Assembly (NCBI GenBank): GCA_015680905.1
Contig: CM027379.1
Location: 92,465,501 to 92,529,500, forward strand
DNA length: 64,000 bases
Reading direction: 5' to 3'
From: Coptis chinensis
Lineage: Eukaryota > Streptophyta > Magnoliopsida > Ranunculales > Ranunculaceae
Shown: piece by piece, positions 2,988 to 60,644 of the stretch
Position numbering within the stretch: the stretch's first letter is position 1
Layout: the number at the start of each line of letters is the position of its first letter
Program-made: the position numbers and the translations under genes
The notes under the pieces: model-generated
Databases searched by the model: none
What the model saw: only the letters and a program-made list of their open reading frames with translations
What the model was told of the DNA's origin: nothing

Positions 2988-3541
2988 TGTTGGAAAACAA
3001 TCTTTAACAAATAGGATTAACAATGGAAATTGGAAGCTGAGGCACGGACTAGGTCAGCTCTCTTTAAGGTATTGCGGGTTTGTTCCTTTTGGTGCAGACA
3101 GACACGGAACCTCTAGGATACAACAGCCTCTATAAACGTCTTGATGATCACTGCAGAGCAAAAACCAAAACCAGAAAAGAGAGCAAGAACTAATAGTCTA
3201 CTGCCATTATAAGTGAGAGAAGTTTTTCTTAAAGAGAGAGAAGATGTGAAAAACTGGTGTGTTTTGGACTGCTGTGTAGCCTGGTTTTTATAGGTAAGTG
3301 AAAACACAAAAAGGGGATATGAGCGGAAGATTGGTAACGTTCCTACCAAAGCAAAACGTCTTCTCCATTTAACCAATTGGTTATGCGAGAAGAATGTATC
3401 AAGAGCTCAAGCCCAAGACCAAGCCTAATTTAAAATAACCAACATAAACTCTTTACCCACTGCCGTGGCTACTCCATATCCAGCGAAGTCCTGAAACTTG
3501 TTTAAAAATTCCAATACTTAGGTCATAATCTATCCATAACA
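2988..3541 (-). repeat. Copia 5' LTR (554 bp)
   Basis: The segment begins TGTTGGAAAA and ends CCATAACA on the plus strand, so it has TG...CA ends on both strands. It lies directly upstream of gag in the minus orientation. It contains a TATA-type promoter on the minus strand. The second LTR is not in the window, so the borders rest on the terminal dinucleotides and position rather than on an alignment of two LTRs. Confidence 0.75.
3285..3292 (-). promoter_or_regulatory. TATA box of the Copia LTR
   Basis: The minus strand reads CTATAAAAACC here, a good plant TATA box, about 300 bases upstream of the gag-side LTR end. Transcription would be expected to start around 3250-3260. Confidence 0.6.
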
Positions 3542-20915: not shown

Positions 20916-21356
20916 CGGTTTGGCTAGGATGACATTCTTACCGTGACATACTTAGAGTGACATCCTACTGTTCACGTCCTTAAAGCCCGGCCCACGAACC
21001 AACAAAACACAAAACAGAATTTTGTTTACAAACCTTCGTCAAACAGTCCAAACTCCAAACTCCAAATTCAAACCGAAACCAAACTCCAAAAACTCCACAC
21101 TCCAAACTCCAAATTGATCACCCCACTCCGGCATCCCACTCCGACATCTCCCGTCATCGCAAGCTTGAAGAGGACAGGATAGTTACTTCCCTTGTTTTGG
21201 TACTTTTCGAGTTTTGATATAGTAATGGCTATTGTATCAATGTTCATGACATTTGATGCTGTAGAGTGTGGACTGTAGTTGAACAATACCGTATATCAGT
21301 GTATGGACTAAAGATGCTAGAATTTTTCATGCAAAGGTGAAAATTTGCATGAGTTT
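20916..21356 (+). repeat. Left terminal inverted repeat of MULE (441 bp)
   Basis: It pairs with 27938-28378. Differences are a handful of substitutions, such as AAAGATGCTAG against the AAAGCTGCTAG complement. It includes repeated CAAACTCCAAACTCC words and likely carries promoter activity for the inward genes, which is usual for MULEs but not shown here. Confidence 0.93.
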
Positions 21357-21803
21357 GTGAATTTTTAGACTTGTATCCAAATTGAAAATCAGCTGCTAGA
21401 ATGCTTTCAATGGGGTAAAAAATTTGATGATTGAGTTTTCAATGGGGTACAATCCCACGTCATCGTATATGAAGCAGCTTTCAATGGGGTAAAAATTTGG
21501 AGTTTGCAGTTTTCTAAATGCTTGCTAGAATAATATTTGATCAATTTTCACGCTAATCATGAAATAAAACTTTAAGTGAAATTATTATATTGCGTGCTTA
21601 TGTACCAAATTATTTAACTCCAAATGCTATATATTTATGAAATTTTAAGGCATATTAATTCTAGAAGCAAATTTGTATTGGCAAATTTATCGAAATAAAT
21701 TTTATTACTTTCAGTCAATATGTGTAGTCTCCCTTGTCATGCTAGTCTGATGTTGAATTTTACAGTAATTGTCTTTTAAACTTTCTGTAGTATTTCTACA
21801 TCC

Positions 21804-22184
21804 ATGAATAAGAGCAAGTGTCCATTCTGTGGAAGCACCGTATTCCATAGAACTTCAAGAACCGAGTTGAATCCTGAACGGCGTTTCTTCATTTGCACAA
21901 GAAATACATATCATTTACCAATAGAACATAGATGTAGATATTTTATATGGGAGGATGAGATAAATTATGGAAGTTGTTCGTTTGCCCCAGCACTAACTCC
22001 ATCCACAAATTCTTTTGCGGCAGCTCGAACTGAAAGTGAAGTTTCCATTTGCGCAAGGAAGATAAAGACTGATTCATTTATTCACTGGATTGGCATGCTC
22101 ATTTTGAGGTTGTTGTTGGTGTGTATGCTTTTAGTGGTTATCTGTATTATCAAATACCAAATTAAGGTGATATGGTGCTTTTGA
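21804..22184 (+). CDS. GRF-type zinc-finger protein with C-terminal membrane segment, in MULE
   Basis: A 126-residue intact frame. Residues 6-49 form a GRF-type zinc finger: C6, C9, C31 and C44, with ERRFFIC and CRYFIWEDE around the last two cysteines. Such fingers bind nucleic acid in topoisomerase 3 and APE2 and occur in many small uncharacterised plant proteins (At4g04775-like). Residues about 94-117 are strongly hydrophobic (a predicted membrane segment). It lies on the plus strand, opposite the transposase, 450 bp inside the left TIR. It may be a standard accessory gene of this MULE family or another capture; its role is unknown. Unlike the transposase, it has no visible lesion. Confidence 0.7.
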   Translation: MNKSKCPFCGSTVFHRTSRTELNPERRFFICTRNTYHLPIEHRCRYFIWEDEINYGSCSFAPALTPSTNSFAAARTESEVSICARKIKTDSFIHWIGMLILRLLLVCMLLVVICIIKYQIKVIWCF

Positions 22185-22195
22185 TGGTTTTGAAG

Positions 22196-22450
22196 AGGAT
22201 GGTATAACTGCTCGGTTATCTGTTAAGAATATGTTATGAATCTGTTACCTGTTGAATTTTTTCGGTTATCTGTTAAGAATCTGTTGAATCTGTTATCTAT
22301 TGAATTTTTTCGGTTATCTGTTAAGAATATGTTATGAATCTGTTGAATCTGTTATCTGTTGAATTTTTTCAGTTATCTGTTAAGAATCTGTTATGAATCT
22401 GTTGAATCTGTTGAATTTTTTGGTTATCTGTTATGAATCTGTTGAGTGTG
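22196..22450 (+). repeat. TCTGTTAAGAATCTGTT-type tandem repeats
   Basis: Units built from CGGTTATCTGTTAAGAAT, (A/C)TGTTATGAATCTGTTGAATC and TGTTGAATTTTTT words are repeated about four times downstream of the GRF ORF. Confidence 0.85.
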
Positions 22451-22456
22451 TATTGA

Positions 22457-22890
22457 ATGTGTGTTATGAAACTCGACGTGGATTTGAAGTGTCTTAGAGA
22501 GAAAGTTTATAGTAGGCTCGAGAATCTCGCATCATCGTCGTCAACGTTTTCGTCCGAGGTTGGCTTGAAAAGTGTTGTTGATCTTGTTGCTGAAGAGAGT
22601 AGTACAATCACTGAAGCTGGAATTATCATCAAAAGGAGCCAGGTGAATGTCATGTTTTTGGTGTACATATATCAAGTATTTTTTTGTTTCAAATATTGAC
22701 ATCTAGTTTTTCTTTCATGAGTTATCTTCACCTGAACTGTTGCTTATTCTCTGTTGTGCAGACTCGTATCCCTGCGAAAGCCTAGAGAAAGGTTGCGAAG
22801 GAGATCAAGACTGCTCGAGCTTTTGGCCTGATGCCTTTCACGACAATGGGAGAATACCCATTTCGTTTTGATCATTCTAGGGGGCACACT
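22457..22890 (+). pseudogene. Captured ribosomal protein S18 (bS18m-like) fragment
   Basis: Two blocks separated by a GT-AG intron (donor after 22642, acceptor before 22762). The first ends ITEAGIIIKRSQ. The second reads TRIPAKA, a TAG stop, then RKVAKEIKTARAFGLMPFTTMG, the conserved C-terminus of bacterial-type S18 as found in plant organellar (probably mitochondrial) ribosomes. Retention of the intron shows capture from genomic DNA. The in-frame TAG, replacing an expected arginine or lysine, and the loss of the normal C-terminal residues after TMG make it non-functional as S18. It sits between the GRF ORF and the RPI fragment inside the MULE. Confidence 0.8.
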
Positions 22891-23074
22891 GATTCTGATT
22901 GGGAGCAAGTGTTGTAGTGACTGGTACTGCTGCCTTGTTGCCTGCCTGCTACTGCTGGAAAGCAAGTGCTGCTGCTGCCGCCTACTGCTAGAAAGCAAAT
23001 GGTTCAGAGCTGATTGTATACCCCAAAACTTGTTGCCTTGTTGCTGCCTTGCTTTCCATTGTATATGAACAAAA

Positions 23075-23455
23075 ATGGTTGAGGCCGCGTCGGCGAAGTT
23101 TGTCGTGGTTGTTGATGATACTAAGTTGGTTAGTGGTTTGGGTGGTAGTGGACTTGCAATGCCAGTTGAGGTTGTGCAGTTTTGTTGGAAATATAATTTG
23201 GTTAGATTGCAAGAGATTTTTAAGGGTGAAGGTTGTGAAGCTAAACTTAGAGTTGATGGTGATGGGAAGCCTTATGTTACGGATAATTCAAACTACATTG
23301 TTGATTTGTATTTCAAGACGCCGATTAAGGATGCGGGGTCAGCTGGGAAGGAGATTTCGTCCTTGGAAGGAGTAGTGGAACATGGGTTGTTTCTCGATAT
23401 GGCGACTGATGTTATTGTTGCTGGAAAGGAAGGAGTGACTGTGCAAACTAAATGA
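23075..23455 (+). CDS. Captured ribose-5-phosphate isomerase C-terminal fragment (open frame)
   Basis: An uninterrupted 126-residue frame matches the C-terminal half of plastid ribose-5-phosphate isomerase A (RPI3-type), which interconverts ribose-5-P and ribulose-5-P in the Calvin cycle and pentose phosphate pathway. Visible family blocks: KFVVVVDDTKLV, LGGSGLAMPVEV, YVTDNSNYIVDLYF and EGVVEHGLFLDMA, with a normal-looking C-terminus. The substrate-binding N-terminal half and plastid transit peptide are missing, so isomerase activity is unlikely. The start at 23075 is simply the first in-frame ATG. The frame is free of stops even though the neighbouring S18 piece is broken, hinting at recent capture. 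Confidence 0.85.
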   Translation: MVEAASAKFVVVVDDTKLVSGLGGSGLAMPVEVVQFCWKYNLVRLQEIFKGEGCEAKLRVDGDGKPYVTDNSNYIVDLYFKTPIKDAGSAGKEISSLEGVVEHGLFLDMATDVIVAGKEGVTVQTK

Positions 23456-25468
23456 AGTTGGAGTTGAACTGTTGAAGTAAGACATTCTATGCTTCCTGAA
23501 TTTTTATTTTTTTTGAGCTGTTATAGTGTAGTTTGTTGTTTAATTATATGAAACTTATTGAGAAGTCTATATTTTTGTTGTGCTTTTTGTTAATTTAGAA
23601 GTTGAACTTCATTGATGTTATTGGAATCGAATAATAAGGAAATCTAAGGAAATGGAGATATTCCATTTGAATGATTAGACATGTAGATTATATAGTGCTG
23701 GAAATGTATATGAAATAAGATAGATAATGGATAGTGGTGTTTTAGCTTTTAATGCTATATTTCATTTTCCTTTTTTCCTTGGGCAAAACATAGTAGACAT
23801 ATTGGATGATTTCATTCCGTAACCTTTTAATAAGAAAACAGTGATAGAGTTCTTGTTGGAGATTCAATATGCTTCTTCAATTCTACTTCCGTTTTAGAAC
23901 ATCGAAAGAAAGATTGCAGATACCTTGAAACCAAGCTCAGAACCTATTCGTTGTAATCTAGAAACAAATGTTGAACAATAACTTGATCACTTAGTATCTT
24001 CTTTCCATCTATGGTTTATCTCTTTCAATACCTTGCAAAAGACCTTCGTGCGGCTAATAATAATTCATCCCAAGTCATTAAAAAATAAACCAAACCCTCT
24101 CATGTAACGTCTTTGGGAATGGTTGGCAAAACCAAAATACCCTTTTGTTCATGGGTGCCCTAGCTTCTGAGAGCCAAATAACAAATCTGTTTTTTCTACT
24201 TTCAAAGATGTTTCTAAATGTATAAGTCTCGAAGATTATTTTCCAGCTTTATGTAAAAGTTTCGAAAATTACAAAAAGAGCTTTTAACAGAAACTTTCTA
24301 AACAAAAGAGTTTTTAACTAAAAGAAACTTTTAACATGAAATGAAACTTGATGAATGAAACAAAAAGAAGCATCACACGATGAATGAAACAAAAAGAAGC
24401 AAACTTGATGAATGAAACTTAATTCTGCAAATACGAAAAACTGTCGGCCCAAAACTGCCAGACAGATTATTACAAATCAACTTTACAAAATTCTGACATA
24501 TCATCAAAATTTCTAACAGAACTGCTGAAAGTCTGTAGGCCTTCTGCCAAGAGCTTTAAGACCTTCTGCCAAGACCTTATGTCAGGACCTTCTGACAGCT
24601 TAGTGTTTTCCTACTTCTTGACCCTCAACATGCATTAAGCAACATAACCATGTCTTCAATCTCCACCGACATATATGCCTTGATAAAGACTAATTCCTAT
24701 TAACCAAAAAAAAAAAGGAACCATCTCTTTAGTACATTAAACAACAACTTCATACAGTCCACACCTAAAACATTGTCTCTAACTAACTTCGACTAACTTC
24801 AATCACACTATGGAAAATACAACACATGGCATTCACATTTAAAGCCACTATAGACCTTACACTGCAAGTACATAACCTTTGTCAGATCGCCTGATTAAAG
24901 ACAAATCAATACAGCGAAGTATCAAAATTCAAAATTGCATATTAAAAACATCATAGTTCACGCTATTTCTATTTGTTCTAAGAACCACGTCCGAAGGAAA
25001 ATATAAAATGCATCAAGGAAAATATAAAATGCATAAGCCTCAGGATCTCATATGTCCGAAGGCCATCCCGTTATGGATATTTATACAACAAAATGAAAAA
25101 AAAACATGCCTCTAATACTTCCATACTTCTAAGATTACATCAAGAAAGTCATACAATAGTGGAAAGTATTGACAACACAAAAATACTTACATTTCACAGA
25201 TTACTTGTTATTTTTCTCTCGGACAATTTCTCGAGTCATGCTTAGCAATCTTTCTACTGGGATTTACACATTCTTCTGGATTGTTTAGAGCTATCTCCCA
25301 GGAGATTGAAATCTCTCCTCGTTCTTCTTCCCCCTCCCTTTTGTTTGAGAAATGTTGGGATTCAAAATCAATATCTGAAATAAAGATTTGAAAATCAAAA
25401 TAAAAAAAACTATTTATATTAAATTAAACATTAAAATCAAATAACATTAAACATTAAAATCAAATAAC
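23456..25468. other. MULE interior without recognised genes
   Basis: AT-rich sequence between the captured fragments and the transposase 3' end. Short repeats such as AAACTTGATGAATGAAAC (24346-24420) and GACCTTCTGCCAAGA-type words (24536-24600) are present. No coding block was recognised. Confidence 0.6.
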
Positions 25469-27431
25469 CTATGAGGTATTAACCGAAGGAATTGAAGGCT
25501 CTGCAACTGGAGGAATTGAAGGCTCTGCAAACGGAGGCTCTTCATTATATGCATCTCCTTCGCAAGAAGTTTCATTAAACTTTGAAACTCCAATAGCCAT
25601 TTCTCCAATCTTTTCTATAAAATATGAATAACCCTCAACAGTATGCGATGCAATGTAAGCCAGTTGAGAAGCAACCTTGATATAATGAGCCACTCTCAAA
25701 GGTTCATGGTTTTCATGGCCGACCACTAATCCAGTATCAAACTCCGCTCTATACGTGTTTGTCTTTTGCATCCACCGCTTCAAAAGAAAATGCCTTGGAA
25801 TCTCTTCAATCTCATAACGCATAAAAAACTTTAACATATGACCACAAAGCAACCCCATAAATTGAAAGTACTTGCATTCGTAGTCTCCCTCTAAAGTTCC
25901 TCTATCGAAACTCACTCTCCAAACAGACTTCTTCAGCGGGTCTCTCCATTTCACCATGTAGCTTCCAGTTCCATACCTATCAATCTGTTCCCCATCAATT
26001 TTGTACTCCATCTTTGCCTTCTGGTATTGCTCCTTAAATTTATTGAATACTTTAATCGTATAGACCTTCGCAGCATGCATAAGGAGGAAAGCATCTTCAG
26101 CCACAATTCATGAACTATGCTCGGTGCGGTAATCAGAATCTCTTTCATTCCTAGCAATCGAGGCCAGAGACTTCTCATTACCATGTACAAACTGCATCAG
26201 TGTAGTTCTCGAATTGACAAATTGGTCATAATGAGAATTCATCGATTCACTTCTCCCAGTCGTATGCATACCAGCAAAAAAGGTGTCACTGAGATAACAC
26301 GGAACCCATTTCTCCTGAATATTATATATTTCTGTCAACCAACGATTTTCAGACAACTCGTTCTTCTCTATGATTGTACACCATCTCTTTCAAAATCAGC
26401 AATCATATACGAGAAAGAAATAGTGTTCTTCAGGTCAGTTACCAATGTCTCAATTTTAGTAAAGGACAGCTTCTCTTGGAATTTCTGCATAACATGCCAA
26501 AGACAGTAATGATGACGAGTATCAGGAAACACTTTAGCAATGGCTGCAGTCATCACTCTATCCTGGTCAGTGATAATTGTAGTTGGCGCACGACCACTCA
26601 TGGTTGCAAGCCACGCCTTAAACAGCCATATGAATGTATGTCCTGTCTCATCAAGCAATAGCGCGCAACCAAACTGAACCGACTGCAAATGATGGTTGAC
26701 TCCAGTAAAGGGGGCAAAAGGCATAGAGTATGCATTGGTACGATATGTGGTATCAAAAGAGACAACATCCCCAAAGTATTCATACTGGACTCGAGACCTC
26801 CCATCAACCCAGAAAAAGTTTAGTGCAGTCCCATTTTGATCTAGATCAATGGCGGAGTAGAATTGGGGATCCTCCACACTCCTCTGCATAAAATAGTTTA
26901 GCACGGTTGTTACATCACCTTCTTTAGGCATCTTTCTAGACAAACCATAATGATGGTTCCAACAATCCTTCTTTGTAAACCCAACTTCCTCCCCATGAAA
27001 AACAGATGCCACTTTCCCAACAGGTAAATTGTTATCACTGAAAATCTCAATCAAGCTCTTTGCTGCTTCAGGCATAGTTTTGTTAATTTTCATACAAATT
27101 CTCTTCGCTGGAGTCACGCAACCGTGGCTATGTTCATTATGAGCAATGTTGACATCGTATATCTCTTCATGTAGTATTTTCTTAACACGCATTTTAGCTT
27201 CGCAACCGCACCGGATAGTCGATGTATTTCTTAATCTCACTGAATCTCTCTTGTTAGGGGCACCTTCCGTGCGCAAACAAATAAACAATTAGTAACCACA
27301 TTCACATCGGGTTCCTCTTCTTCTCCGTCATCCGAACACGAAGTCTCAAATCCCTCTTGTTGACCATACTCTCTGTAGTAAGTCTTTGCCTCGTCAATAC
27401 TTCTAAAAGTCATACCTACATAACGGAGCAA
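25469..27431 (-). pseudogene. FAR1-type MULE transposase, frameshifted
   Basis: On the minus strand, right to left: a FAR1 DNA-binding domain (GMTFRSIDEAKTYYREYG, 27237-27431) and the MULE DDE core (VVSFDTTYRTN, TIITDQDRVMTAAI, then GRSESMNSHYDQF holding the glutamate). A SWIM zinc finger follows (YECKYFQFMGLLCGHMLK). Four open segments are needed: 27237-27431, 26368-27288, 26108-26356 and 25469-26104. Between the first two and between the second and third the frame shifts. Between the last two an in-frame TGA (26108-26110) interrupts. Total length would be about 650 residues, normal for the family. Plant FHY3/FAR1 factors derive from this family, but the TIRs show this copy is a transposon gene. 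Confidence 0.92.
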
Positions 27432-27937
27432 CTAATATCGTGCTTTGAGCGGGGAGATTTAGTAGACAAAGAACCAACTACATCTTCTTCGATTTCTATC
27501 GATTCATATCGGCGTCAAGAATGAACACCGACCATTATATCAAGACTATATAATACCTGCATGGTAAATTCAACATCAGACTAGCATGACAAGGGAGACT
27601 AAAACAATAAATAAACCAATGAAACAGACGAATGAAAGAGAGGAAGAATATTAGTTTATTGGTAAGGTAAAGAAGCATGAATCAAGCATGAGCTCTCAAA
27701 ACAAGCATGAATCAAGCATGAGCTCTCAAAACTCAATTTACCCATACAAATAAACAAAGAATATCAGGAAACTCAATTTACCCATACAAATAAACAAGCA
27801 TGAATCAAGCATTTTTTAGACGCCAATATTAGTTGTAAGGATACATTACATTTTTAAGCATACATTGATAAATCTATGGCTCTTACACTAATATACGGTA
27901 TTGTTCATATACTGCTATACGGTATTGTCCAAACTCC

Positions 27938-28378
27938 AAACTCATGCAAATTTTCACCTTTGCATGAAAAATTCTAGCAGCTTTAGTCCATACACTGATA
28001 TACGGTATTGTTCAACTACAGTCCACACTCTACAGCATCAAATGTTGTGAACATTGATACAATAGCCATTACTATATCAAAACTCAAAAAGTACCAAAAC
28101 AAGGGAAGTAACTAACCTGTCCTCTTCAAGCTTGCGATGACGGGAGATGTCGGAGTGGGATGCCGGAGTGGGGTGATCAATTTGGAGTTTGGAGTGTGGA
28201 GTTTTTGGAGTTTGGTTTCGGTTTGAATTTGGAGTTTGGAGTTTGGACTGTTTGACGAAGGTTTGTAAACAAAATTCTGTTTTGTGTTTTGTTGGTTCGT
28301 GGGCCGGGCTTTAAGGACGTGAACAGTAGGATGTCACTCTAAGTATGTCACGGTAAGAATGTCATCCTAGCCAAACCG
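27938..28378 (-). repeat. Right terminal inverted repeat of MULE (441 bp)
   Basis: Reverse complement of 20916-21356, followed directly by the second copy of TTTATGTTT. Confidence 0.93.
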
Positions 28379-32904: not shown

Positions 32905-32978
<74 letters not shown>

Positions 32979-33371
32979 GGTGGGATAGAGGCACAGTCAT
33001 TGTAGCCACATTCTAGGCACAGTGACTCCCATCCACCGATCTGTTTCAATCCTACGGATATGGGTAGTTCAATCAGCCAAATACGAAATGTGAAATTATT
33101 TCGGGAAAACAAAATTTTTGAAACAAAAAACAAAAATCTCCAAAACAAAAAAACAAAAGATCGATCTATTTCTCTTTTCTCTCTTAAACCTTCTTCTTCA
33201 AAATTAGATCAATCTCCAAAATTAAACCTCAGCTGAGCACATGCTTCCACAAAGGGTGTTACCAAATAATTGAAGCCTGCTGTCGCTGGCTTTCTGATAC
33301 ATAAGGTAAGCTTTTTGTTTGTTTTTTTAGCTGCTATTTATTTCCATTTAGTGGTTGAGCTAGATTTAGTG

Positions 33372-33772
33372 TATGCCACAAAAATCTGCTTTTACTCTGG
33401 ATAAACGGAGACAGAGAGAATCTTGAAGGGGATTTGGGGGAAGAAGGATTTAAGTTTTGAAACAATCTGGAGGTTTTGGTGTAGCATTGAAGTTTGGGAC
33501 TGTTTTGAACTTGTGCTGGAGTTGGTACTTGTGGGGCTGTTGTTCGACATTGTAAATTTGGGCTGGAAATATCTTGAGAAGATTGAAATCTTGGGGTTGA
33601 TGGATTGTTACCACCAGAAAGAAACCTAAACTTGAGTCTACTACTACTTCTTAGGAGTACTAGGTGTACTTGGATTTGGGATTTGTTTATCTGAAAATGA
33701 AGTTTGATGATCTGAAGATGAATCTCTTGGAATAGATGTGCAGAAAGCTCTTCTCCACCCAGTTCCACCCAT
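33372..33772 (-). pseudogene. WAV3-family E3 ligase fragment, left arm
   Basis: On the minus strand the frame opens with MGGTGWRRAF and SIPRDS at 33772, the N-terminus of WAV3/WAVH RING E3 ligases (root gravitropism and waving). It continues as a Ser/Pro-rich stretch with SPNLQCRTTAPQVP and SPKLQC...TSRLFQNLNPSSPKSP. A frameshift lies within the STPSTP region. The RING, VWA and C-terminal domains are absent. It is the mirror copy of 36717-37101. Confidence 0.8.
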
Positions 33773-33872
33773 ATCACTCTGTATAAAAGATGATAGACAC
33801 AAGAATTAAAACGAAAGAAAAGGGAGTTTGTTATTTGTTGTATTCCTAGCTAGCTAAACAAGACAAAATGAT

Positions 33873-36617: not shown

Positions 36618-36716
36618 ATCATTTTGTCTTGTTTAGCTAGCTAGGAATACATCAAATAACAAACTCCCTTTTCTTTCGTTTTAATTCTTGTGTCTATCAT
36701 CTTCTATCAGAGTGAT

Positions 36717-37101
36717 ATGGGTGGAACTGGGTGGAGAAGAGCTTTTACGACATCTATTCCAAGAGATTCATATTCGGATCATCAAACTTCATTTTCGGAT
36801 AAACAAAGCCCAAATCCAAGTACACCTAGTACTCCTAGAAGTAGTAGTAGACTCAAGTTTAGTTTTTCTTTCGGTGGTAGCAATCCATCAACCCCAAGAT
36901 TTCAATCTTCTCAAGATATTTCCAGCCCAAATTTACAATGTCAAAAACAACAGCCCCACAAGTACCAACTCCAAAGACAAGTTCAAAACAGTCCCAAACT
37001 TCAATGCTACACCAAAACCTCCAGATTGTTTCAAAACTTAAATCCTTCTTCCCCAAATCCCCCTTCAAGATTTCTCTGTCTCCGTTTATCCGAGTAAAAC
37101 A
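36717..37101 (+). pseudogene. WAV3-family E3 ligase fragment, right arm
   Basis: The plus-strand ATG at 36717 opens MGGTGWRRAF, SIPRDS, SDKQSPNPSTPSTPRSSSRL and a GGSNPSTPRFQSSQ block; after about 36945 a small indel shifts the frame. The similarity covers only the disordered N-terminus of WAV3-type E3 ligases, before the RING domain. In this arm the STPSTPRSSSRL stretch is intact, unlike the left arm, so the two arms have diverged independently. Confidence 0.82.
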
Positions 37102-37516
37102 GATTTTTGTGGCATACACTAAATCTAGCTCAACCACTAAATGGAAATAAATAGCAGCTAAAAAAAAACAAACAAAAAGCTTACCTTCTCAGATCGGAAA
37201 GCCGGTGACAGTGAGCTTCAAATATTTGGTAACACCCATTTGTGGAAGCATGTGCTTTCGATGAGGTTTAATTTTGGAGATTGATCTAATTTTGAAGAAG
37301 AAGGTTTAAGAGAGAAAAGAGAAATAGATCGATCTTTTGTTTTTTTTGTTTTGGAGATTTTCTGTGTTTTTTGTTTCGAAAACTTTGTTTTCTCGAAATA
37401 ATTTCGCATTTCGTATTTGGCTGATTGAACTACCCATATCCGTAGGATTGAAACAAATCGGTGGATGGGAGTCACTGTGCCTAGAATGTGGTTCAAAGTT
37501 GGATCGTGCTTCTATC

Positions 37517-37570
<54 letters not shown>

Positions 37571-37639
37571 GTATTAGAAAAAAAATTAAATCTAAACAAG
37601 TACTTGTTCATAGTTGTCCTAGGGAGCCCTCTTTTTCGT

Positions 37640-40065
37640 CATCTTTCTTCATCTTCTGGAAGCGTTGTAAGATCAACTCGGTATCAATGCTATCAAAAAC
37701 TTATTTTTCAATGTATGTTATTAAATAATTATTCAACCATTCATCTGTCATCCGATTGCACAGACAATTCTTTATGATATTCAATTCATAGCAGAAAATG
37801 CCCTCTCCACAGTGGCAGTAGCAACAGGTAAAATCAGCACCAACTCAATCAACAAATAAACAAGTGGGTACACAATGTCTTTCTTCGTCTCAACCATTTT
37901 TTTGGTTAGGCCGCTAATTCCATTTACTGCACCAAACTTAGTATCGAAACGCACATCAATGGTATAATTCTCAAGTTGATCCGCTAATTCCATCTGATCT
38001 ATCTCTGAAAAATCATCGGAATAAAGTCGAGCAAAATGGATCAACTATTGCTTATCGAAAGAAACAAACGATTCACTAGGATCAAGACATGCCATACAAA
38101 GAAGTAATTCTGTATTTGCTTCATTAAACCGGTCGTTTAACTCTTGAAGTTGCAAATCAATACAGTGATAGAATAATCCAACACGATAGTAATGTAAATT
38201 GGTGTTTCCTTCTGCTTTTCGTCAAGACCTCCCTCGAGCCATATACCTCTTTTCCATATTTGGAACAACCGCATCATGTTTGGCACATAGTGAAGAAACT
38301 TCAGTCAGGAGACTATCCCATCCATTATCTCTCATCGCCTGTAAGCATACCTTTGTTATTTTAACAAGAGCCATGACATTGATAATGTCTTGGTCTTCAC
38401 GTTGCAAAGCCTTTGACAAATCATTGCTAATTCCTAGTATCGCTTTCATCAAATGCAAATTGAAGATAAATTCAAAAGACTGTACTAAATCTAATAATCT
38501 GTAAGCCTCACCTCTTTGTTCCGAGCTTAAACCATTTTCCGCTACATTATCAAGTACATCAACTACTGAACCATAAGTGGTTATCATGCCAAGAAGTGTA
38601 TAATAGTGTGAGCCCCATCGAGTGTCACCATATCGTTTAAGACTAGTCTCTTGATTCAACCCTTTGCCACTTGAAATTTCTCCGCTTTGTAACGCTGCAA
38701 GAACTCTAGCCTTCATTGCATCGCGCAACATATCTCGTCGCTCACATGATGCTCCAACAGTATTTACCACATTAGAGAGAATACTAAAAAGGTTAGCAAT
38801 TGACTCATGGTTCTTTGAATTGCAACTGATACAAGGGCTAACTGAAGCTGATGAGAAAAATAATGAACATAAAATGCAGACTCATTCTCCTTCATTACAA
38901 GTGTTTTTAGGTCATTCAAATCACCTTGCATATTGCTGGCCCCATCATACCCTTGTCCACGCAGTCTAGATATGCTCAACCTATACTTGGAGAACAACTC
39001 ATCGATTGCCTTTTTAAGTGTTACTGCACTAGTTTCCTTAACATGCACAACTCCAAAAAATCTCTCAATCACGCAACCTTTCTTGTCGACATAACGCAAA
39101 ACAACTGTCATTTGCCCCTTAATTGATATATCACGTGCTTCATCAACTAAAATAGCAAACAATGAATTTCCATAATATTTTAGAATAGCATTTGTAGTTT
39201 CCACAGTAGCCGAATTCACAATATCTTTTTAGATATCAAGTGAGGTCAATTTCCGATTTTTAGAAGCATTATTAAGAACTTTCTTAATGACTTTGTTATG
39301 ATCTTTCAGAAACCGTATAAGTTCAAGAAAATTACCTTTATTGATCGACTCATCTGATTCATCATGGCCATGGAAAGCTAAACCTTGTCTCAAAAGAAAC
39401 CTAATGCAATCAGTTATTGCAGTTAGGTGTATTTGATAATCCCTTCGAACTTGGTCAGATTGTCTGTGAAGAAATGTCTCGATATGTTGCTCTTGATTTA
39501 ACAAAGCCTGTGCTGCCCTATAAGCAATATTATGAGCACTATTTGGTCCTCCAATGTGTTCTTTTAATTTGGTTTTCCTTTCCCAATTAGTAAACCCCCT
39601 GTGAGAAAAAACATCCCCACCTCCTTGTGCCCCCTTATTAGGTTTAAAGAGATAACAATATAGACAAAACGCGGCATCCTCGTGAATACTATATTCCAAC
39701 CAACTAAACTCCTCATACCACTCTTTCTGAAAGTGTCGGATTCTCTTGCCTCTTGTTCTTGGAGGAAAAGTATGATTAGGCTGGCAAGGACCCCTAAGCA
39801 AATATGCTCTTCTCACCGAGTCTTGATTATTAGGATGATAATCGGAAATATTTTTCCTCGGTGCAGGGTCTCCCTGAAGACTAGACAAGTCAAGTTCTTC
39901 ACGTTGAACCCTCTTTGACGTGGGTTGTTCAACACCACCATCCTCAGTTTCTTGGTGACTTCGCTTTTAGGAGGATCCTACTTCAACACTAGCAACATTA
40001 TTTGTGTTATTAGGTGGCTGAGTAGGTTAAGCGGGCAACGACTTTCCTTTGATCAAATTCTTTAA
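37640..40065 (-). pseudogene. hAT transposase, TTF-type zinc finger with dimerisation domain
   Basis: Right to left on the minus strand: a start near 40065, a TTF-type finger region (FPPRTRGKRIRHFQKEWYEEFSWLEYS...AAFCLYCYLF), a DUF4371 region (KNRKLTSLDI, VETTNAILKYYGNSLFAILVDEARDIS), a catalytic-core block with GYDGASNMQG, and a C-terminal hAT dimerisation block (PVATATVERAFSAMN, then CNRMTDEWLNNYL in another frame). Lesions: two early stops (about 39970 and 40030), a stop at 39226-39228, a frameshift near 38765, stops near 38221 and 38045, a frameshift at about 37780, and a late TAA. Family proteins are about 700-800 residues, consistent with this span. Confidence 0.9.
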
Positions 40066-42096: not shown

Positions 42097-42654
42097 GGCT
42101 ATGTTTGATTGGAGGTGTGGCAAAGGCAAATTTTGTCACCATTTGCCACTGGCAAATTTGTAATGTGACAATTGCAAATAATTTATGGCAAATTTAAATT
42201 ACCACTGTTTGATGATACTGTGGTAAATATCATTTGCCCTGATTTGTAACCATTTGCTGCTGTTTGATTGTCCAAATTTGCTACGGCAAATATTTCATTT
42301 TTTTTTCGTGTTTTTAAAATATTTAAGATTTAAAAATGATAGCTACTCTTATTTGTAAATTTATTTTATTTGTATATGGTTTTATTTGTGTAGTTTTTTC
42401 CCACGGCAAGTAGTATTTCAACTTTTAGTTTTTTTTTTTTTTGTTTTCAAACTCAATGAAATATAAGAAAAAGCAAAAAAAAAATTATAAACAAGATCAG
42501 TCTCGGCGAACTTCTCAACAATCTACCAACGATAACATACACAATACTAAATAATTTTTATGTACTATTGTGCAGAATAGTACTAAAAACATATTCAACC
42601 ATATAGTTTTATCCATTAACACCAATGTTACATAATAAAAGACCAATGAATGAA

Positions 42655-42740
42655 GGATCTTGGTGGATTTGAACCACCACCACCTTGGGATACATGAAGA
42701 TGCAATCTCCCAAGTGCTCTACCATTTGAGCTAAAGATCC
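42655..42740 (-). tRNA. tRNA-like sequence (86 nt), anticodon uncertain
   Basis: The minus strand can form a full cloverleaf: acceptor stem GGATCTT/AAGATCC (7 bp), D arm GCTC/GAGC with AAATGGTA loop, T arm GGTGG/CCACC with loop TTCAAAT. The anticodon arm CTTGG/CCAAG encloses 21 nt, so it would need a 14-nt intron or be non-canonical. A box (TAGCTCAAATGG) and B box (GGTTCAAATCC) are near consensus. TTGCATC inside the large loop could place GCA as anticodon, but the position-32/33 rule is not met with the outer stem. It may be a tRNA-derived relic carried by the element. Confidence 0.55.
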
Positions 42741-43562
42741 GTTATGTGGTAATCTACTAGTTTGCTTATCTACTAGTTGCAACTGCTGCAACACCCAGCA
42801 CACACTCCACCAAAGAAATAAGACAACACTCTCGACAAAGAATAAAGAAGCAAAGACTCCAAAGACACACTCCACCTAAACAAAGAATAAAGAAGGCAAT
42901 AACAACAAACAAGCAGCGAGCCCTTGAGAGCACCCAAAGACACTCCACCCAAAGAAACAATAGCACCACAAATGATCCAAGAAGGTCTGGAGCAGCAATA
43001 TGCTTCATTTTCTTCCATAATCGGCAATCTGAGAATAAGGAAATAGCTAAATCAGAGCTTGGAATTTAAAAGAATGTGTATACAGTTACCATAATATAAA
43101 CTCTTGATATCTCATTTGTCTAAACAACAATTCGTGCAATTAAAGTTCCAAAATATCAAGACCATACCAATGCCCTCCTCCTTTTTTCCTAATGACACAT
43201 GTAGTTATCTATAGCCATAATCCACGATTGAAACCAAGTTACACCAAACCTAACAGATCAGTTTACCTATAAACTGTGATTTCTTTTATTTTGTAACCTA
43301 CATTAAATGAAAAAATAAAGTACAGCGTAAAGCAATAATCTAAAACATTTCCCTCAACTACTTATAAGTGGTAGCCCGTTATCTCAAAAACAGCAACATT
43401 CACTTGTAAAGATGACATCAATCACATCAACTAACTAGCTAATAAAAAAATGTAATCTTTCTACAAACAATAACGTAAACTTAAATACAGTTTAGATTTC
43501 TAAAACTAAACTACTTAGTAAGAAAAAAGATAAAAAAAAATAGTAGGGCTTTTACTAGAAAT

Positions 43563-45138
43563 ACATAAAATTGCCGTTTTATACCATGAACTTTGCTGGT
43601 TTTATCAATTTGGGCCATGAACTTTTTTTTTTAGCAAATTGGGCCATGACCTTTCTTTTTTGTATCAGTTTGGGCCACCGGTGTATTTCCGTTAGAAAAT
43701 TTGCTTATGTGTACAAACGGCTGCCTATGTGTACAAACGTCTGTTATGTGTGCTGGACTTACCCATGGACCCAATGAGCCCAAATCCGCTACATAAAAAT
43801 CATGCATCATGCCCAAACTAAATAGTGATGATGTCACCATGCATCATCTCATCTTCTTCATATGAGCACGCACAGATCAAACATAACTCTAATTTCTACA
43901 TTCTTAGTTAATAAGTAGCGATACTAGGACGAAACAGCTCCTTGAAAGAAATCAGGTGGCCATGTTATACTCTTACAATGCTAAAATGGCATTACCGATG
44001 GACGGTGGCATATCGTTATCTACCACTACTGGGTTGGCTGGAAGAAATGGAAGGCTTGGGAAGTTTTCTAATGGAGAACTTATGGGGAAGAAGTTGCTGA
44101 ACTTGAGTCAACTTCACCATAGTAAGGCTAGTGGAAATAGTAATGGTTGTTTTGTGTGCATGTCCGTTCTCACTAATAATGTTGCTGCTGAGACCAAGGT
44201 ACGTAGCAAGACTAGCTCTACTATATTCCAATAGTATAAGTGCAACATGCCGTGTGCACGTCCTCTTTAATGGACAACACCATAAACGGGTTGTTTTGGT
44301 AGTGCCAGGGGTCCAAATCACTCTCCATTTTGAACGTTTATACGACAAACTCTAGATATGGAATTTTGATCATTTATATTGCTAGACTAATCAGATTATT
44401 TCGGCATTAAGATAACACCAGTGAGCTTAAATTGAAAAAGAAAAAACTAGACGTATAAATGTTTGTGTGTATCAGTTACTAACCCATGCATGATCCATCC
44501 CAACAAATGGGTGATATTTTAACCATGATAAACCTGAGCAAACAAACATTATAACATAAATGCCTCATTATGTTTCTACAATCAACACTTCCATTAATCT
44601 TTTGTAATGTTCATTATAACAGGTAATAAAGGTTGATCCAATTGAAAATGGAGATATAATAGTTGTTGGTTCAGACGGCCTATTTGACAATATGTTTGAT
44701 TACGAGATTCAAAATGAGGTGAACAAAAGAAACAAAGATAGACGTGATGAGAAAGGGAGAAGTGGTGGCCGGACGAGAGCTGATCTGGTGGTGGTTGTGG
44801 AAGCGTTGGTGAGGAAGATGAACAATGAAGTTTTTTTGGTTTTGTTGGGCTTGGGCCAAAATCAATATGTGGGCTTTGAAATTTCGGATTCGAAACACTT
44901 TGAAATTTCGATGCCACGTCACCGGTGATTAGGTGTGCACTTCCACGGTGACACATAAGCATTTGGTCGGACACATATACATCCGGCACGCCACATAAGC
45001 ATGTGAAGTAACGGAATGGTAACGATGGCCCAAACTGATACAAAAAATAAAGGTCATGGCCCAATTTGCTCAAAAAAAAAGTTCATGGCCCAAATTGATA
45101 AAACTAGCAAAATTCATGGTACAAAACGGCCATTTTTT
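43563..45138 (+). mobile_element. Pack-MULE (1576 bp) with two captured exons
   Basis: TIRs of about 125 bp share GCCGTTTT(A/G)TACCATGAA and AATTTGGGCCATGAAC words, at 43563-43690 and 45012-45138 inverted. Flanks ACTAGAAAT (43554-43562) and CCTAGAAAT (45139-45147) match at 8 of 9 positions, a Mutator-type 9-bp duplication. No transposase. Inside are the 5' exon of an AGPase large-subunit gene and an exon of a PP2C phosphatase gene, both on the plus strand. Confidence 0.85.
43986..44928 (+). CDS. Chimeric AGPase transit peptide - PP2C fragment gene (2 exons)
   Basis: Exon A, 43986-44198 (71 codons), matches the N-terminal transit and linker region of the ADP-glucose pyrophosphorylase large subunit (MALPMDGGISLS, TGLAGR, CMSVLTNNVAAETK) and ends at an intact GT donor. 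Exon B begins after an AG at 44622 and encodes KVDPIENGDIIVVGSDGLFDN, a PP2C-type phosphatase block with the DG motif, then a basic tail, ending with TGA at 44928. Splicing donor to acceptor keeps phase 0 and gives an open frame of about 172 residues. Neither parent's catalytic domain is complete. Predicted location is plastid, from exon A. Transcription is not shown by the sequence; the exon pairing is my inference from splice sites and phase. Confidence 0.65.
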
Positions 45139-45578
45139 CCTAGAAATAATGAAAGTTATACCTGAAAAAAGTTGTGAATGAGTGAATCGTAATTAGAAAT
45201 CATTCAAATCATGAATCAAATAACGAATATGTTTCCCAACACTATTCTTGTTGGGGGAGGATGAGAGATTATCGATTAAAGGGAGAGGAAGGAGAGAGAG
45301 AGACTGCGAACAGAAAGGGGGGGAGAGAGAAATGTTATCGAGCTTCTTTTTTTTTTTTTGATTGGTGGCAAATCACGGCAAATTTGGGTACAAAATTGTC
45401 ATGGAAAAATTTACTCACCTAAATTTTGGCACCAAAATCATGGCAAATAACAACTTGTGGCAAATCCAAAAAAAATTTGGTATGACTCAAAAAAAACACA
45501 TCAAACAGTAGCAAACAAGTAAATAATTCCATTTATTTGCAGTTGCCATGGCAAATGGGGCTATCAAACACAGCCTTA

Positions 45579-45912
45579 TTTTCGGTGAACTTCATCGAAG
45601 ACTATGATTTGATAAATTTGAATTTCCCAAAATAATAGGCTCAGGCTTCAGGATCAAAGAGATGTGATATACGCAAGTCTTTTTCATGGATTTTGTTTTT
45701 ATTTTCTAATAATCTCATGTGGAATTTTGTGGAGAGTGAAAGATTGTCCACGAATGAGAGATAATTTTGAGCGTTGGACTAGAATCTGCGTTTGTATTAG
45801 AATAGAAGAGAAGAGACCAAGTCCACATTTCATCTGTGGCACGTGGCCCAGGTCAGTCCAATGTGGCTGCGCTACTTAGAAGGAAACTTAACACTTTCAA
45901 CCAAATATTAGG
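45579..45912. other. Host interval between two elements
   Basis: About 330 bases with no recognised gene; its right end is the first AATATTAGG copy (45904-45912) of the next MULE's target duplication. Confidence 0.5.
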
Positions 45913-46034
45913 AGGCGCGGTATTGGCACCCTACTTGATACGATTGGCATCCTTTTGACAAAAAGTAAAACAATAATGGTTATTCTTTATATGTTCTTTT
46001 ACATTCCACATGCTTGATAGTTCTTCGACATGGA

Positions 46035-46111
46035 GTTGCCGCGAGATCCCATATCCCACGGCAGGCAGTTGTCGCGAGATCCCATATCCCACGGCAAGCA
46101 ATTGCCGCGGA
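46035..46111 (+). repeat. 33-bp tandem repeat (2.3 units)
   Basis: The 33-bp unit (GTTG(C/T)CGCGAGATCCCATATCC then CACGGCA(G/A)GCA) occurs at 46035-46067 and 46068-46100, with a partial third unit. It is a subterminal repeat of the MULE at 45913. Confidence 0.9.
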
Positions 46112-47054
46112 ATATTTTTTTTGTGTTTTTTTTTCACTTCAAATTTTGCGTATTGATACATACAACATATGGATACCTCATTTTCTTTTTTAAAGCTTCT
46201 TTATACACTCTAAGAACAACACTAAAACCATGACAAAGAAAATGTACAATCGAAGCGTAATTTTGTTATATCGCGGTAAATATTTTCAAATGCTATAAGA
46301 AAAACTTGTGATCAAATTTTAATGAAGAAGAATTTTGATAATTAACACAAGCAAAGACTCTATTTTAGTAAACACAACTATCTCGCAACAACTAACTTTT
46401 TTTATGGTGGCTATTAAAAAAAAAATAAAAAAAAAAAGGACCCACAGTAACCACCTTCAGTGGGAAATGGGATCTCGCGGCAACCCGATGTCATGGATTG
46501 TGCGATCTCGCGAAAACTCCTTTCTGAATTTGTTTTTTGTTTTTTTGGGTTGAGTTCTGACGCTTGTTTAAGAATTAAGAGTGAAATAAAGGAGGGGTGA
46601 TTAGAATTATACAAACTGACTGATTGGGCTTTTGTCCTTTGGCTATTTGTTTTAGTCTCATTAACCCACCAAACATTCAAAGACACATTTGTCCATTTTT
46701 AATGGTTTTGGACTCAAAATAAATGATAAATAATAATTTTGTAAGGACAAAGAAAAGTAAAAAAAATGTTGGTTTATTAGAATGTTGGTTTATTATTTTT
46801 TTTTATACTATTTTTTTTGTTCATTATATTCTCACTATAGTTGTGAAAATTTTGAGGGTACGGTAGTGGGAGTTTGTTAAAAAAAATTGGGGGGTGCAAG
46901 TCCTTATAGTTTGAAGATTTTTCTAGGCAATCAGTTATGTAGTAGTGGAGCTTTTCTAATCTCAGGGGGTACGACCGCCCCCACACGCACCCCCTTATAT
47001 TCATCTATGGTTGTGTTGATTCTTCTCTTCGACAATCACATTCAGTCGCTCTCT
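46112..47054. other. MULE subterminal non-coding region
   Basis: AT-rich spacer between the left repeats and the NB-LRR fragment; contains another GGGATCTCGCGGCAACCC word at about 46469 that is nearly identical to 60885 on the right side. No gene seen. Confidence 0.5.
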
Positions 47055-48131
47055 CACTTCTTTTATCTTCATTCCAATATCATGGCGAAAACCAACATCT
47101 TTAAAACAGATGATGGTTTTATTGATAACTCTATAGACGACAAATTAAGGTATCTTAGATGCAATAATCTTCCGACTTCATTTGAAAATTCTTTAAGGCC
47201 CATACAGCCACTTAAATCCAATGTCCTAAGACATGTCAATTGACGATATAACTTAATCGAAGCTGTACGACGAGCTAGTCTAGCATGCGTCAAAAACGTT
47301 CTCAACTTCTTTGCCGAGTAAACTGAGGAATTCTCCAAACCTTGTATTGCTGTTAAATGACGGACTTTGCTTTCATCAAATTTTGTATTGTTTGTCTCCA
47401 GAATGCAACATTCACTCTTTGACAGAAATTGTGCAAAATCATGAACAAGATCATACATCTTGCAACTTGTGATGTTGCCATCCGAATCTCTTTTAAAATC
47501 TTGAAAGAATGAGCGCATTGCAAGATTATCATAATATTCTTCTCCAATTATCTCAAGATCTTTGCTTTCTTCTAAGCCAAGAAAACCTTGTGCCATCCAT
47601 AACTTCACCAACCGATCCTTATCTAATTTTGTATATTTAGGAAAGATGAGACAATATACAAAACATTACTTCAAATTTGAGGGCAGAGGGTAATAGCTCA
47701 AGAAGAGAGAAGGTAAAATATCTTTTTCAACAATTTTCATACTCCAGATTTCACTTGTTAAAACATCGTTCCAATCTTTTTTGGTTTTCTTAAAGCGCAT
47801 AAGGCTTGCTAAACTCTTGACAGAGAGAGGGACCCCATTGCATTTCTCAGCAATTCGTCTGCCAACATCTTCCATTTTCTTAAGATCTTCTTCTCTTCCC
47901 TGAAATGCGATGAGTCTAAACAGCAACCAACTATCTTCTTTAGACAATTCCCCCAACTTATGGTTTTGGGTAGAGCCCATCATAAGTGCAACTTTCTCAT
48001 TATGTGTTGTGATAAAGACTCTACTACCAGAAGCACCACCATCTAGAGCAAGCTTCAAAGGGTTCCAATCATTAGCATCTTCTGTCCAAACATCGTCTAG
48101 GACTAAAAGAAACTTCTTTCCTCTGAGTGAT

Positions 48132-49609
48132 TGATAAAAGATAAAAATGAATAATTTACCTACGAAATGAACGATGAAACTCAAAACGTAAGTAAACTAA
48201 AACTATCTTATGTGCCTATGATTTATCAAAGTTTCTACTCTCAATTCTATCGAAATAGAGTGGAGTAACAAATTCGTTCCACTCCTAGTGCTCTAGCATG
48301 GAATGTTTTCTAATCTAATTAGTCGGTCTTAAGTCTAATGAGAGCTTTACGAGGGGGAATTATACTACGATGCAACTACCCACAAGATACAAACTATAAT
48401 TGATTCAACTACGGAAATACTACGTTGATTCTATAATAAGGAATTAGGGGGGATTGATTCCACCTTAACTCAACTTAACTCACTAGCTTGATTTAATCGT
48501 CAGAATCCAAATTGAATCGCTACGCAGAACAATTGGTTCTTCCTAATCCCTAATTACACATGACATTTCTACCAATTCATAACTAGCATGTGAACAATTA
48601 AACCCATTCTCATGGCGAATTAATCGTTTCTAGAGTGGAATAGAAATTACGACAACTCTACGATAATCGGAATCAAGCTTTCATCAAGGCTTCTCAACCC
48701 CCTCTAATGGATGTTTAGCCGAGAATCATTCCGCAATCATTTCCATATGAATCTAAACTAAACATAATATCAAGATTCGAAATTTACTAATCTAAATTAA
48801 ACAATAATTAAAATCTAATTAACAACTAAGAATGGTAACCAACAATAATTAAAACTAGATCTAATAGATTGAAATAATAAAAATCGAAATGACAAGAATA
48901 ATAACTATTTTATTTATCTAATGAATGATATTCAATGATTCAAGAAATTAATCTAAAACAAGAAATAAAATTCTAAAACTAAGTTCTAAAACTCATTAAT
49001 GGAGGCTAACTAATCTAATTCTAATCTAGGTCTAACTATCTACCATTAACAAAGAGTGAAGCTTTGGTTTTTATACATTCAGATCCAAAAATCGTGCATG
49101 GGCTTGGAGCCATGTTTTGGGCCAGAGAATCAGGCCCAAAACCCAATTCTTTCAGTTTCAAAAGGCCTATTCAGTTGCAGTTGGCTTCAACAGACTTTTT
49201 GTCCATTTGTGCTCCTCTGATTGGGTCAAGGCTTGGACCATTGGAAAGCTCTTTCTGAGCCGGTCGTTTTGACATAAAGTAGGCCCCATTCCGAGGTCTG
49301 AGTCAAAAGATACGGCCTTCGAAGTTTTGTCGACTTGTGTCTTTGTTTCACGCGTCGACTTTTCAGCTTTTGGTAGGGCTTTAGAAAGGCTTATCTTCTT
49401 GAATCTTGGCCTTTAATCACGGAACTCCTTAGTAACCGACCTTTGCTCCTTTATCTCGCTAAAGTGGCACATTTCTGCATATAATGGACTTTGAAGCCTG
49501 AAATGCATAAAAACACGTAATCGGTGTTAACTCTTAATTATTACTCACATAATCGGGTCTAATAGTATGATCTGTTATAGGTTAAAACTACAGTTTTGGG
49601 CTCTTATCA
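48132..49609 (-). repeat. 3' LTR of the Athila-like element
   Basis: 1478 bp, near-identical to 59158-60644 except for clustered changes in the last 350 bases (for example around 49280-49400). The same spurious 60-70 residue open frame appears in both LTRs and is not a gene. Confidence 0.93.
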
Positions 49610-59155: not shown

Positions 59156-59157
59156 TT

Positions 59158-60644
59158 TGATAAAAGATAAAAATGAATAATTTACCTACGAAATGAACGA
59201 TGAAACTCAAAACGTAAGTAAACTAAAACTATCTTATGTGCCTATGGTTTATCAAAGTTTCTACTCTCAATTCTATCGAAATAGAGTGGAGTAACAAATT
59301 CGTTCCACTCCTAGTGCTCTAGCATGAAATGTTTTCTAATATAATTAGTCGGTCTTAAGTCTAATGAGAGCTTTACGAGGGAGAATTATACTACGATGCA
59401 ACTACCCACAAGATACAAACTATAATTGATTCAACTACGGAAATACTACGTTGATTCTATAATAAGGAATTAGGGGGGATTGATTCCACCTTAACTCAAC
59501 TTAACTCACTAGCTTAATTTAATCGTCAGTAATCCAGATTGAATCGCCACGCAGAACAATTGGTTCTTCCTAATCCCTAATTACACATGACATTTCTACC
59601 AATTCATAACTAGCATGTGAACAATTAAACCCATTCTCATGGCGAATTAATCGTTTCTAGAGTGGAATAGAAATTACGACGACTCTACGATAATCGGAAT
59701 CAAGCTTTCATCAAGGCTTCTCAACCACCTCTAATAGATGTTTAGCCGAGAATCATTCCGCAATCATTTCCATATGAATCTAAACTAAACATAATATCAA
59801 GATTCGAAATTTACTAATCTAAATTAAACAATAATTAAAATCTAATTAACAACTAAGAATGGTAACCAACAATAATTAAAACTAGATCTAATAGATTGAA
59901 ATAACAAAAATCGAAATGACAAGAATAATAACTATTTTATTTATCTAATGAATGATATTCAATGATTCAAGAAATTAATCTAAAACAAGAAATGAAATTC
60001 TAAAACTAAGTTCTAAAACTCATTAATGGAGGCTAACTAATCTAATTCTAATCTAGGTCTAACTATCTACCATTAACAAAGAGTGAAGCTTTGGTTTTTA
60101 TACATTCAGATCCAAAAATCGTGCATGGGCTTGGAGCCATGTTTTGGGCCAGAGAATCAGGCCCAAAACCCAATTCTTTCAGTCCAAAAAGGCCTTTTCA
60201 GCTGCAGTTGGCTTCAACAGACTTTTCGTCCACTTCTGCTCCTCTGATTGGGTCAAGGCTTGGACCATTGGAAAGCTCTTTCCGATCCGGTCATTTTGAC
60301 ATAAGATAGGCCCCATTCAGGTCCGAGTCAAAAAGATACGACGCCGGAAGTTCACCGACTTGTGTGTTGTTTTAGCCTCGGTCGACTTTTCTTTTTAGAA
60401 ATGCTTATCTTCTTGAATCTTAGCTTTTAATCACGGAACTCCTTAGTAACCGACTTTTGCTCCTTTATCTCGCTAAAGTGGCATATTTCGCACATAATGG
60501 ACTTATAATGGACTTTGAATCTTCGAAATGCAGCTTTTAAAAAACACGTGAATCGTGTCGGTGTTAACTCTTAATTATTACGCAGATAATTGGTCTAATA
60601 ATATGACTGTTACAGGGTTAAAACTACGGTTTTGGCTCTTATCA
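59158..60644 (-). repeat. 5' LTR of the Athila-like element
   Basis: 1487 bp, direct repeat of 48132-49609. Followed by GTGAT (60645-60649), the target duplication. Confidence 0.93.

Follow-up and report, generated by a model that had tools for sequence, protein, structure and literature searches.

The window analysed here, a stretch of 64,000 nucleotides of Coptis chinensis (contig CM027379.1, positions 92,465,501 to 92,529,500, forward strand), contains a well-resolved Pack-MULE in which the first exon of an AGPase large-subunit gene lies upstream of, and in phase with, the start of the last exon of a PP2C gene. The element is of a known kind and is a well-documented instance of it. The predicted fusion is probably not a new working gene but cargo carried along by the transposon. 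The explanation as a whole, in which a MULE captured two gene pieces, the pieces were joined inside their introns, the composite was amplified and the fusion is best read as transposon cargo, is very likely to be right.

Pack-MULEs are recognised by long terminal inverted repeats (TIRs), a target-site duplication (TSD) of 9-11 bp and fragments of host genes whose parents lie outside the element; all three are found here, which bears out the classification made in a preliminary description of this DNA. The element occupies positions 43564-45139 (1,576 bp) and is larger than the interval 43986..44928 given in that description. Its TIR pair (43567-43711 and 44992-45136) is 145 bp long at 87.6% identity; the MULE selection rule in the accessible part of PMC3310237 is a TIR of at least 50 bp. 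The 9-bp TSD CTAGAAATA flanks the element exactly (9/9, 43555-43563 against 45140-45148), and exact 9/9 TSDs, each of a different sequence, also flank the five further full-length copies. The host-gene fragments come from an AGPase large-subunit gene and a PP2C gene. No transposase family was found by Pfam in the four open reading frames of at least 100 aa that overlap the element, and its TIRs have no similarity to the MULE transposase element at 20916-28378. The features of the element are as follows.

43555..43563, no strand: left target-site duplication CTAGAAATA, 9/9 against 45140-45148
43564..45139, plus strand: Pack-MULE element of 1,576 bp with TIR and TSD, one of at least six full-length genomic copies
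43567..43711, plus strand: left TIR with internal repeats of about 30 bp, 87.6% over 145 bp to 45136-44992
43712..43978, plus strand: 5' subterminal region/leader, common to sister MULEs up to 43787, with 43811-43879 also in locus L018
43979..44444, plus strand: segment captured from an AGPase large-subunit gene, comprising 7 nt upstream of the ATG, exon 1 and the first part of intron 1, matching the reverse strand of locus L009
43986..44198, plus strand: AGPase exon 1, 71 codons, with native phase-0 donor at 44199; N-terminus with a putative transit peptide, by homology
44435..44444, plus strand: 10-nt overlap AAAAAGAAAA at the intron-intron join, in both parents
44435..44746, plus strand: captured PP2C segment (intron end and last-exon start), matching the reverse strand of locus L010
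44623..44745, plus strand: PP2C exon fragment, 41 codons, with SDGLFDN motif and native phase-0 acceptor at 44622
44741..45139, plus strand: MULE family 3' subterminal region and right TIR, common to sister elements and containing the last 60 codons of the open reading frame
45140..45148, no strand: right target-site duplication CTAGAAATA, matching the left one

Sister elements of the same TIR family have other contents. Ten regions, chosen from 51 other matches, were retrieved; both ends match the window element in eight of them, while L015 and L017 match at the 3' end only. L020 carries a fragment of ribosomal L28, by a Pfam match (2.1e-14) that was obtained for this element only. Its DNA is matched at 94-96% by L013 and L014 over their length; L020, L013 and L014 are located on contigs C2, C6 and C7. 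L012 and L016 have another interior in common. Since the interiors of the sisters differ, the TIR family took up different inner sequence more than once.

The search for parents and copies covered the host genome (935.6 Mb). Two loci match the captured parts besides the six full-length copies: L009 on contig C5 and L010 on contig C2. These are the AGPase and PP2C parents that the preliminary description had proposed to look for in the genome. Among viral contigs, no relatives of either exon were found.

Window positions 43979-44444 match the reverse strand of L009 at 455 of 466 bases (97.6%). Downstream of exon 1, three of four L009 stretches match Pfam families (NTP_transferase at 4.3e-10 and 1.3e-8, LbH_GLGC at 9.8e-9; the fourth is below the cut-off), and conceptual exons 1-3 match PDB entry 9xuk_B, 'Glucose-1-phosphate adenylyltransferase large subunit 1, chloroplastic', at 2.6e-55, with no gap at the exon 1/exon 2 border. 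By these matches, L009 is an AGPase large-subunit gene. In this parent, exon 1 ends at GAGACCAAG followed by the intron start GTACGTAG, and the first codons of exon 2, after TTTTGTAG, are TTG AGA GAC, in phase 0; the element donor AAG|GTACGT at 44198/44199 is this same native border. Exon 1 spans the AGPase N-terminus and stops shortly upstream of the catalytic domain; the alignment with 9xuk_B is close only from TNNVAAETK onward. The position of exon 1 fits a predicted transit peptide.

Window positions 44435-44746 match the reverse strand of L010 at 307 of 312 aligned bases (98.4%); intron gaps of 30, 13 and 1 nt between L010 and the element lie outside these aligned bases. The last two exons of L010 match PDB entry 6ae9_A ('Probable protein phosphatase 2C 1') at 5.4e-18, and no Pfam family scores above the cut-off in the four L010 stretches submitted; on the PDB match, L010 is a PP2C gene. 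In L010 the exon upstream has the donor border GCTGAG|GTAATA, and the first codons of the captured exon, after TTCATTATAACAG, are GTA ATA AAG, in phase 0, so that the element acceptor (TTCATTATAACAG|GTA at 44622/44623) is the parent's own border. An AG stands immediately 5' of the homologous Val codon in the PP2C parent and in six of eight paralogs (L032 and L033 differ); this check took in the parent and eight of the nine weaker matches, with L036 left out.

A protein search with the PP2C fragment, in which all 16 candidates were scored, returned the six copies, the parent at 95% and nine others at no more than 68% identity; no better donor than L010 is therefore seen. L010 may itself be decaying: by eye, there is an apparent frame break between two conserved blocks near position 3240 of its reverse strand. 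Further PP2C-like matches are found near L010 on C2 (98.12-98.18 Mb), two of them with internal stops.

The parental gene models were built from homology and splice consensus. Aligned with them, as the preliminary description had suggested, the element has the native borders and phase of both parents. The AGPase large-subunit first exon with its intact phase-0 donor is located where that description placed it, and its PP2C exon, DG motif and phase-0 acceptor are likewise genuine; PP2C-derived coding sequence amounts to just 41 codons.

The captured introns meet at the 10-nt AAAAAGAAAA (44435..44444), which is present at that point in both parents. At 44741-44746 the PP2C piece gives way to sequence of the MULE family; here the parent has GACGTG and the sister elements have GATGTG. 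From about 44741 the frame reads MULE family sequence common to other elements, and the last 60 residues of the predicted fusion are transposon sequence, ending at a stop at 44926-44928. The predicted fusion is 172 aa long from the ATG at 43986 and 180 aa long from the in-frame ATG at 43962. The in-frame join, a predicted product of about 172 residues and a stop inside the element agree with the preliminary description, the transposon-derived end being an addition to it. A GC-rich stretch at 44735-44830 was considered as a third captured fragment, on the minus strand; this was rejected, as the sequence from 44741 is common to sister MULEs.

The arrangement suggests the following origin. A non-autonomous Mutator-like element would have copied, in the same orientation, the 5' end of the AGPase large-subunit gene and, from the PP2C gene, the boundary between intron and last exon. 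The two pieces would have been joined inside their introns at the 10-nt A-rich stretch, probably by template switching in repair synthesis; microhomology at joins is expected under template-switching models, according to the accessible part of PMC8277862. Both introns are in phase 0, so splicing of the composite intron 44199-44622 would keep AGPase exon 1 and the PP2C codons in frame and would give a product of AGPase exon 1, 41 PP2C codons and 60 transposon codons. The composite would then have transposed to at least six places. It may at most give rise to an occasional chimeric transcript, whose product would have no phosphatase activity. A PP2C phosphatase needs all metal-binding motifs of its catalytic domain; the element has 41 codons with one DG motif, and the rest of the last exon and the earlier exons are absent. 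A 41-residue piece without the rest of the domain cannot be a phosphatase.

At least six full-length copies of the fused element are present, on contigs C1, C2, C3, C5, C6 and C8. This count is a lower bound, as the DNA search scored 40 of 296 candidates. The copies have six different 9-bp TSDs, which were read from the flanks (an automated routine gave shifted near-repeats of 11-12 nt for four copies); consequently, the fused element transposed as a unit.

Four of the six copies are unable to make the predicted fusion. In L002 exon 1 is interrupted by an 8-bp insertion; L004 carries a 2-bp insertion, and its donor is changed from GT to AT; L005 (C6:41160312-41161272) has four short exon 1 insertions with adjacent base changes, the most of any copy; L006 contains an in-frame stop, and its acceptor is lost. 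The intact copies are the window copy and L003 (C1). Both keep both splice sites; their tails differ, and the fusion is 172 residues long in the window copy and 163 in L003. L003 is marked by silent changes at 44060, 44676 and 44703; the window copy has a T at 44666, found otherwise only in L004, and lacks a block after 44876. Among the copies, exon 1 has seven insertions in 213 bp, six of which are not multiples of three, and the intron has ten indels in 424 bp. Frame-breaking changes are not avoided, and the density of insertions in exon 1 is about that of indels in the intron. With all columns included, pairwise diversity reaches 0.026 in exon 1 and 0.024 in the PP2C exon, compared with 0.021 in the intron. 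For the most part, the reading frame does not constrain the decay of the copies, and the fusion is therefore most readily explained as transposon cargo. The proposal of a functional de novo gene finds no support at the level of the family, given the four broken copies, the frame breaks in exon 1 and the unlike tails.

Substitutions give a slightly different picture. When exon substitutions among the copies are polarised by the parents, five are replacement and seven silent, whereas the spectrum of mutations in the intron and leader predicts a replacement fraction of 0.76 (p=0.012). This tally was made by hand, and columns beside the L005 and L004 indels were dropped (12 L005 sites and one L004 site); with these columns restored, exon diversity is not below intron diversity. 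Polarised by majority, the exon count is six replacement to seven silent, with p=0.020 under the same spectrum and p=0.049 under a simple transition bias. There are 12 exon events where about 22 are expected from intron and leader rates (Fisher's test against the intron, p=0.17). The replacement deficit is mild and not fully explained. It is a hint only, since the events are few, the columns depend on the data and methylation context may have an effect; as such, it keeps the question of function slightly open.

The preliminary description had also proposed Ka/Ks against the parents. The ratio is indeed low for exon 1, where the window copy differs from the AGPase parent by four silent changes and one replacement. 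Since each of these differences occurs in at least five of the six copies, they may have arisen on the branch of the parent and are not very informative about selection on the element. The low ratio was rejected as evidence of selection for this reason.

Three other readings of the fusion can be set against this record. In one, it is a functional new plastid-targeted gene: a transcript starting in the MULE leader is spliced at 44199-44622, the product is imported, and the PP2C fragment and tail have a function in the plastid, such as that of a decoy or an interaction peptide. Native splice sites and an open frame in two of six copies speak for it, as does the mild replacement deficit, and Pack-type elements can give chimeric transcripts, as stated in the accessible parts of PMC8903248 and PMC13317346. 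The remaining four copies are broken, however, frame-breaking insertions in exon 1 are not depleted, and the two intact copies have unlike tails (172 vs 163 aa). Because the capture begins 7 nt upstream of the AGPase ATG, it does not include the AGPase promoter; 14 ATGs lie between the left end of the element and 43962; and the PP2C part is limited to 41 codons from one exon. A functional gene is quite unlikely on this evidence. A narrower form, in which the window copy and L003 (C1) are a young expressed gene under weak purifying selection, with the AGPase transit exon directing the product to the plastid while the other copies decay, is very unlikely.

In another reading the cargo is regulatory: transcripts of the element are processed into small RNAs, which silence the parental AGPase large-subunit or PP2C gene. 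The high identity to both parents would suit this, and captured segments in maize act as siRNA reservoirs according to the accessible part of a 2026 review (PMC13317346); in a scan of 42500-46500, however, the only inverted repeats of at least 20 nt are TIR-based and low-complexity pairs, with none in the captured parts. This reading is unlikely. Chance resemblance, with no captured gene at all, could be raised because the fragments alone are weak database matches. The PP2C fragment has no Pfam family above the cut-off (SpoIIE is below it) and matches PDB entry 6ae9_A at only 0.0015. Exon 1 alone has no match in PDB (another query gave one meaningless match, at 0.41), and its open reading frame has none above the curated cut-off in Pfam, where MCM10_OB and Beta-prop_NOL10_N score below it. 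It is the parental loci, with gene context and identities of 97.6% and 98.4%, that rule out a chance match; this possibility is already refuted, and its probability is practically nil.

The element resembles other gene-capturing transposons to varying degrees. Plant Pack-MULEs, including those with pieces of several genes (reviewed in PMC13317346), have long TIRs, 9-bp TSDs and no transposase seen inside, with exons and introns from identified parents, several copies and possible chimeric transcripts; the window element is alike in these respects. It differs in that one parent's native donor faces the other's native acceptor, both in phase 0, and in that both parents and the join are resolved to the base; this is a matter of detail, not a new kind. 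In the soybean CACTA element Tgm-Express1, captured fragments of unrelated genes also keep introns and canonical splice sites, and the captured exons are spliced into new combinations seen as cDNAs (accessible part of PMC1947982); this element belongs to another transposon superfamily, and the present one is known from DNA alone. Animal Pack-TIRs share microhomology at joins, template-switching models and multicopy spread by transposition; for one of them, Ssk-FB4, the accessible part of PMC8277862 gives peptide and selection evidence, in contrast to the genomic sequence available here. No report of an AGPase/PP2C Pack-MULE chimera was found in the literature searched, which left most subscription journals outside its coverage.

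The element provides a clean, base-resolved case of exon shuffling by a DNA transposon, with parents, splice sites, microhomology and amplification readable in one genome. Were the intact copies expressed, the element would represent a direct transposon route by which a new protein gains a plastid address. It also illustrates that an open frame across two fused exons does not amount to evidence for a gene.

The window contains several other features. A 7.46-kb MULE at 20916-28378 has 442-bp TIRs at 98.9% identity and the TSD TTTATGTTT. It carries a MULE transposase ORF on the minus strand (26368-27288, Pfam MULE 1.1e-31) and a ribose-5-phosphate isomerase A fragment on the plus strand (23069-23455, Pfam 9.9e-34); this transposase-bearing element thus seems to have captured a host gene as well. 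Two inverted arms of about 960 bp, 92% identical (32921-33872 and 36618-37574), have no clear TSD because the ends are TA repeats. Both arms have ORFs with a related Ser/Pro-rich stretch; one starts MGGTGWRRAF and presumably resembles WAV3-type RING ligases.

A direct duplication of about 1.5 kb at 93% is found at 48131-49609 and 59157-60644. The adjoining ORF 47069-47665 matches the WH_DRP disease-resistance winged helix (8.1e-26). A tRNA-Ala(TGC) gene of 87 nt (42654-42740) lies about 0.8 kb to the left of the Pack-MULE. The minus-strand ORF at 38764-39228 has a DUF4371 domain (4.5e-36), which occurs in hAT-like transposase genes.
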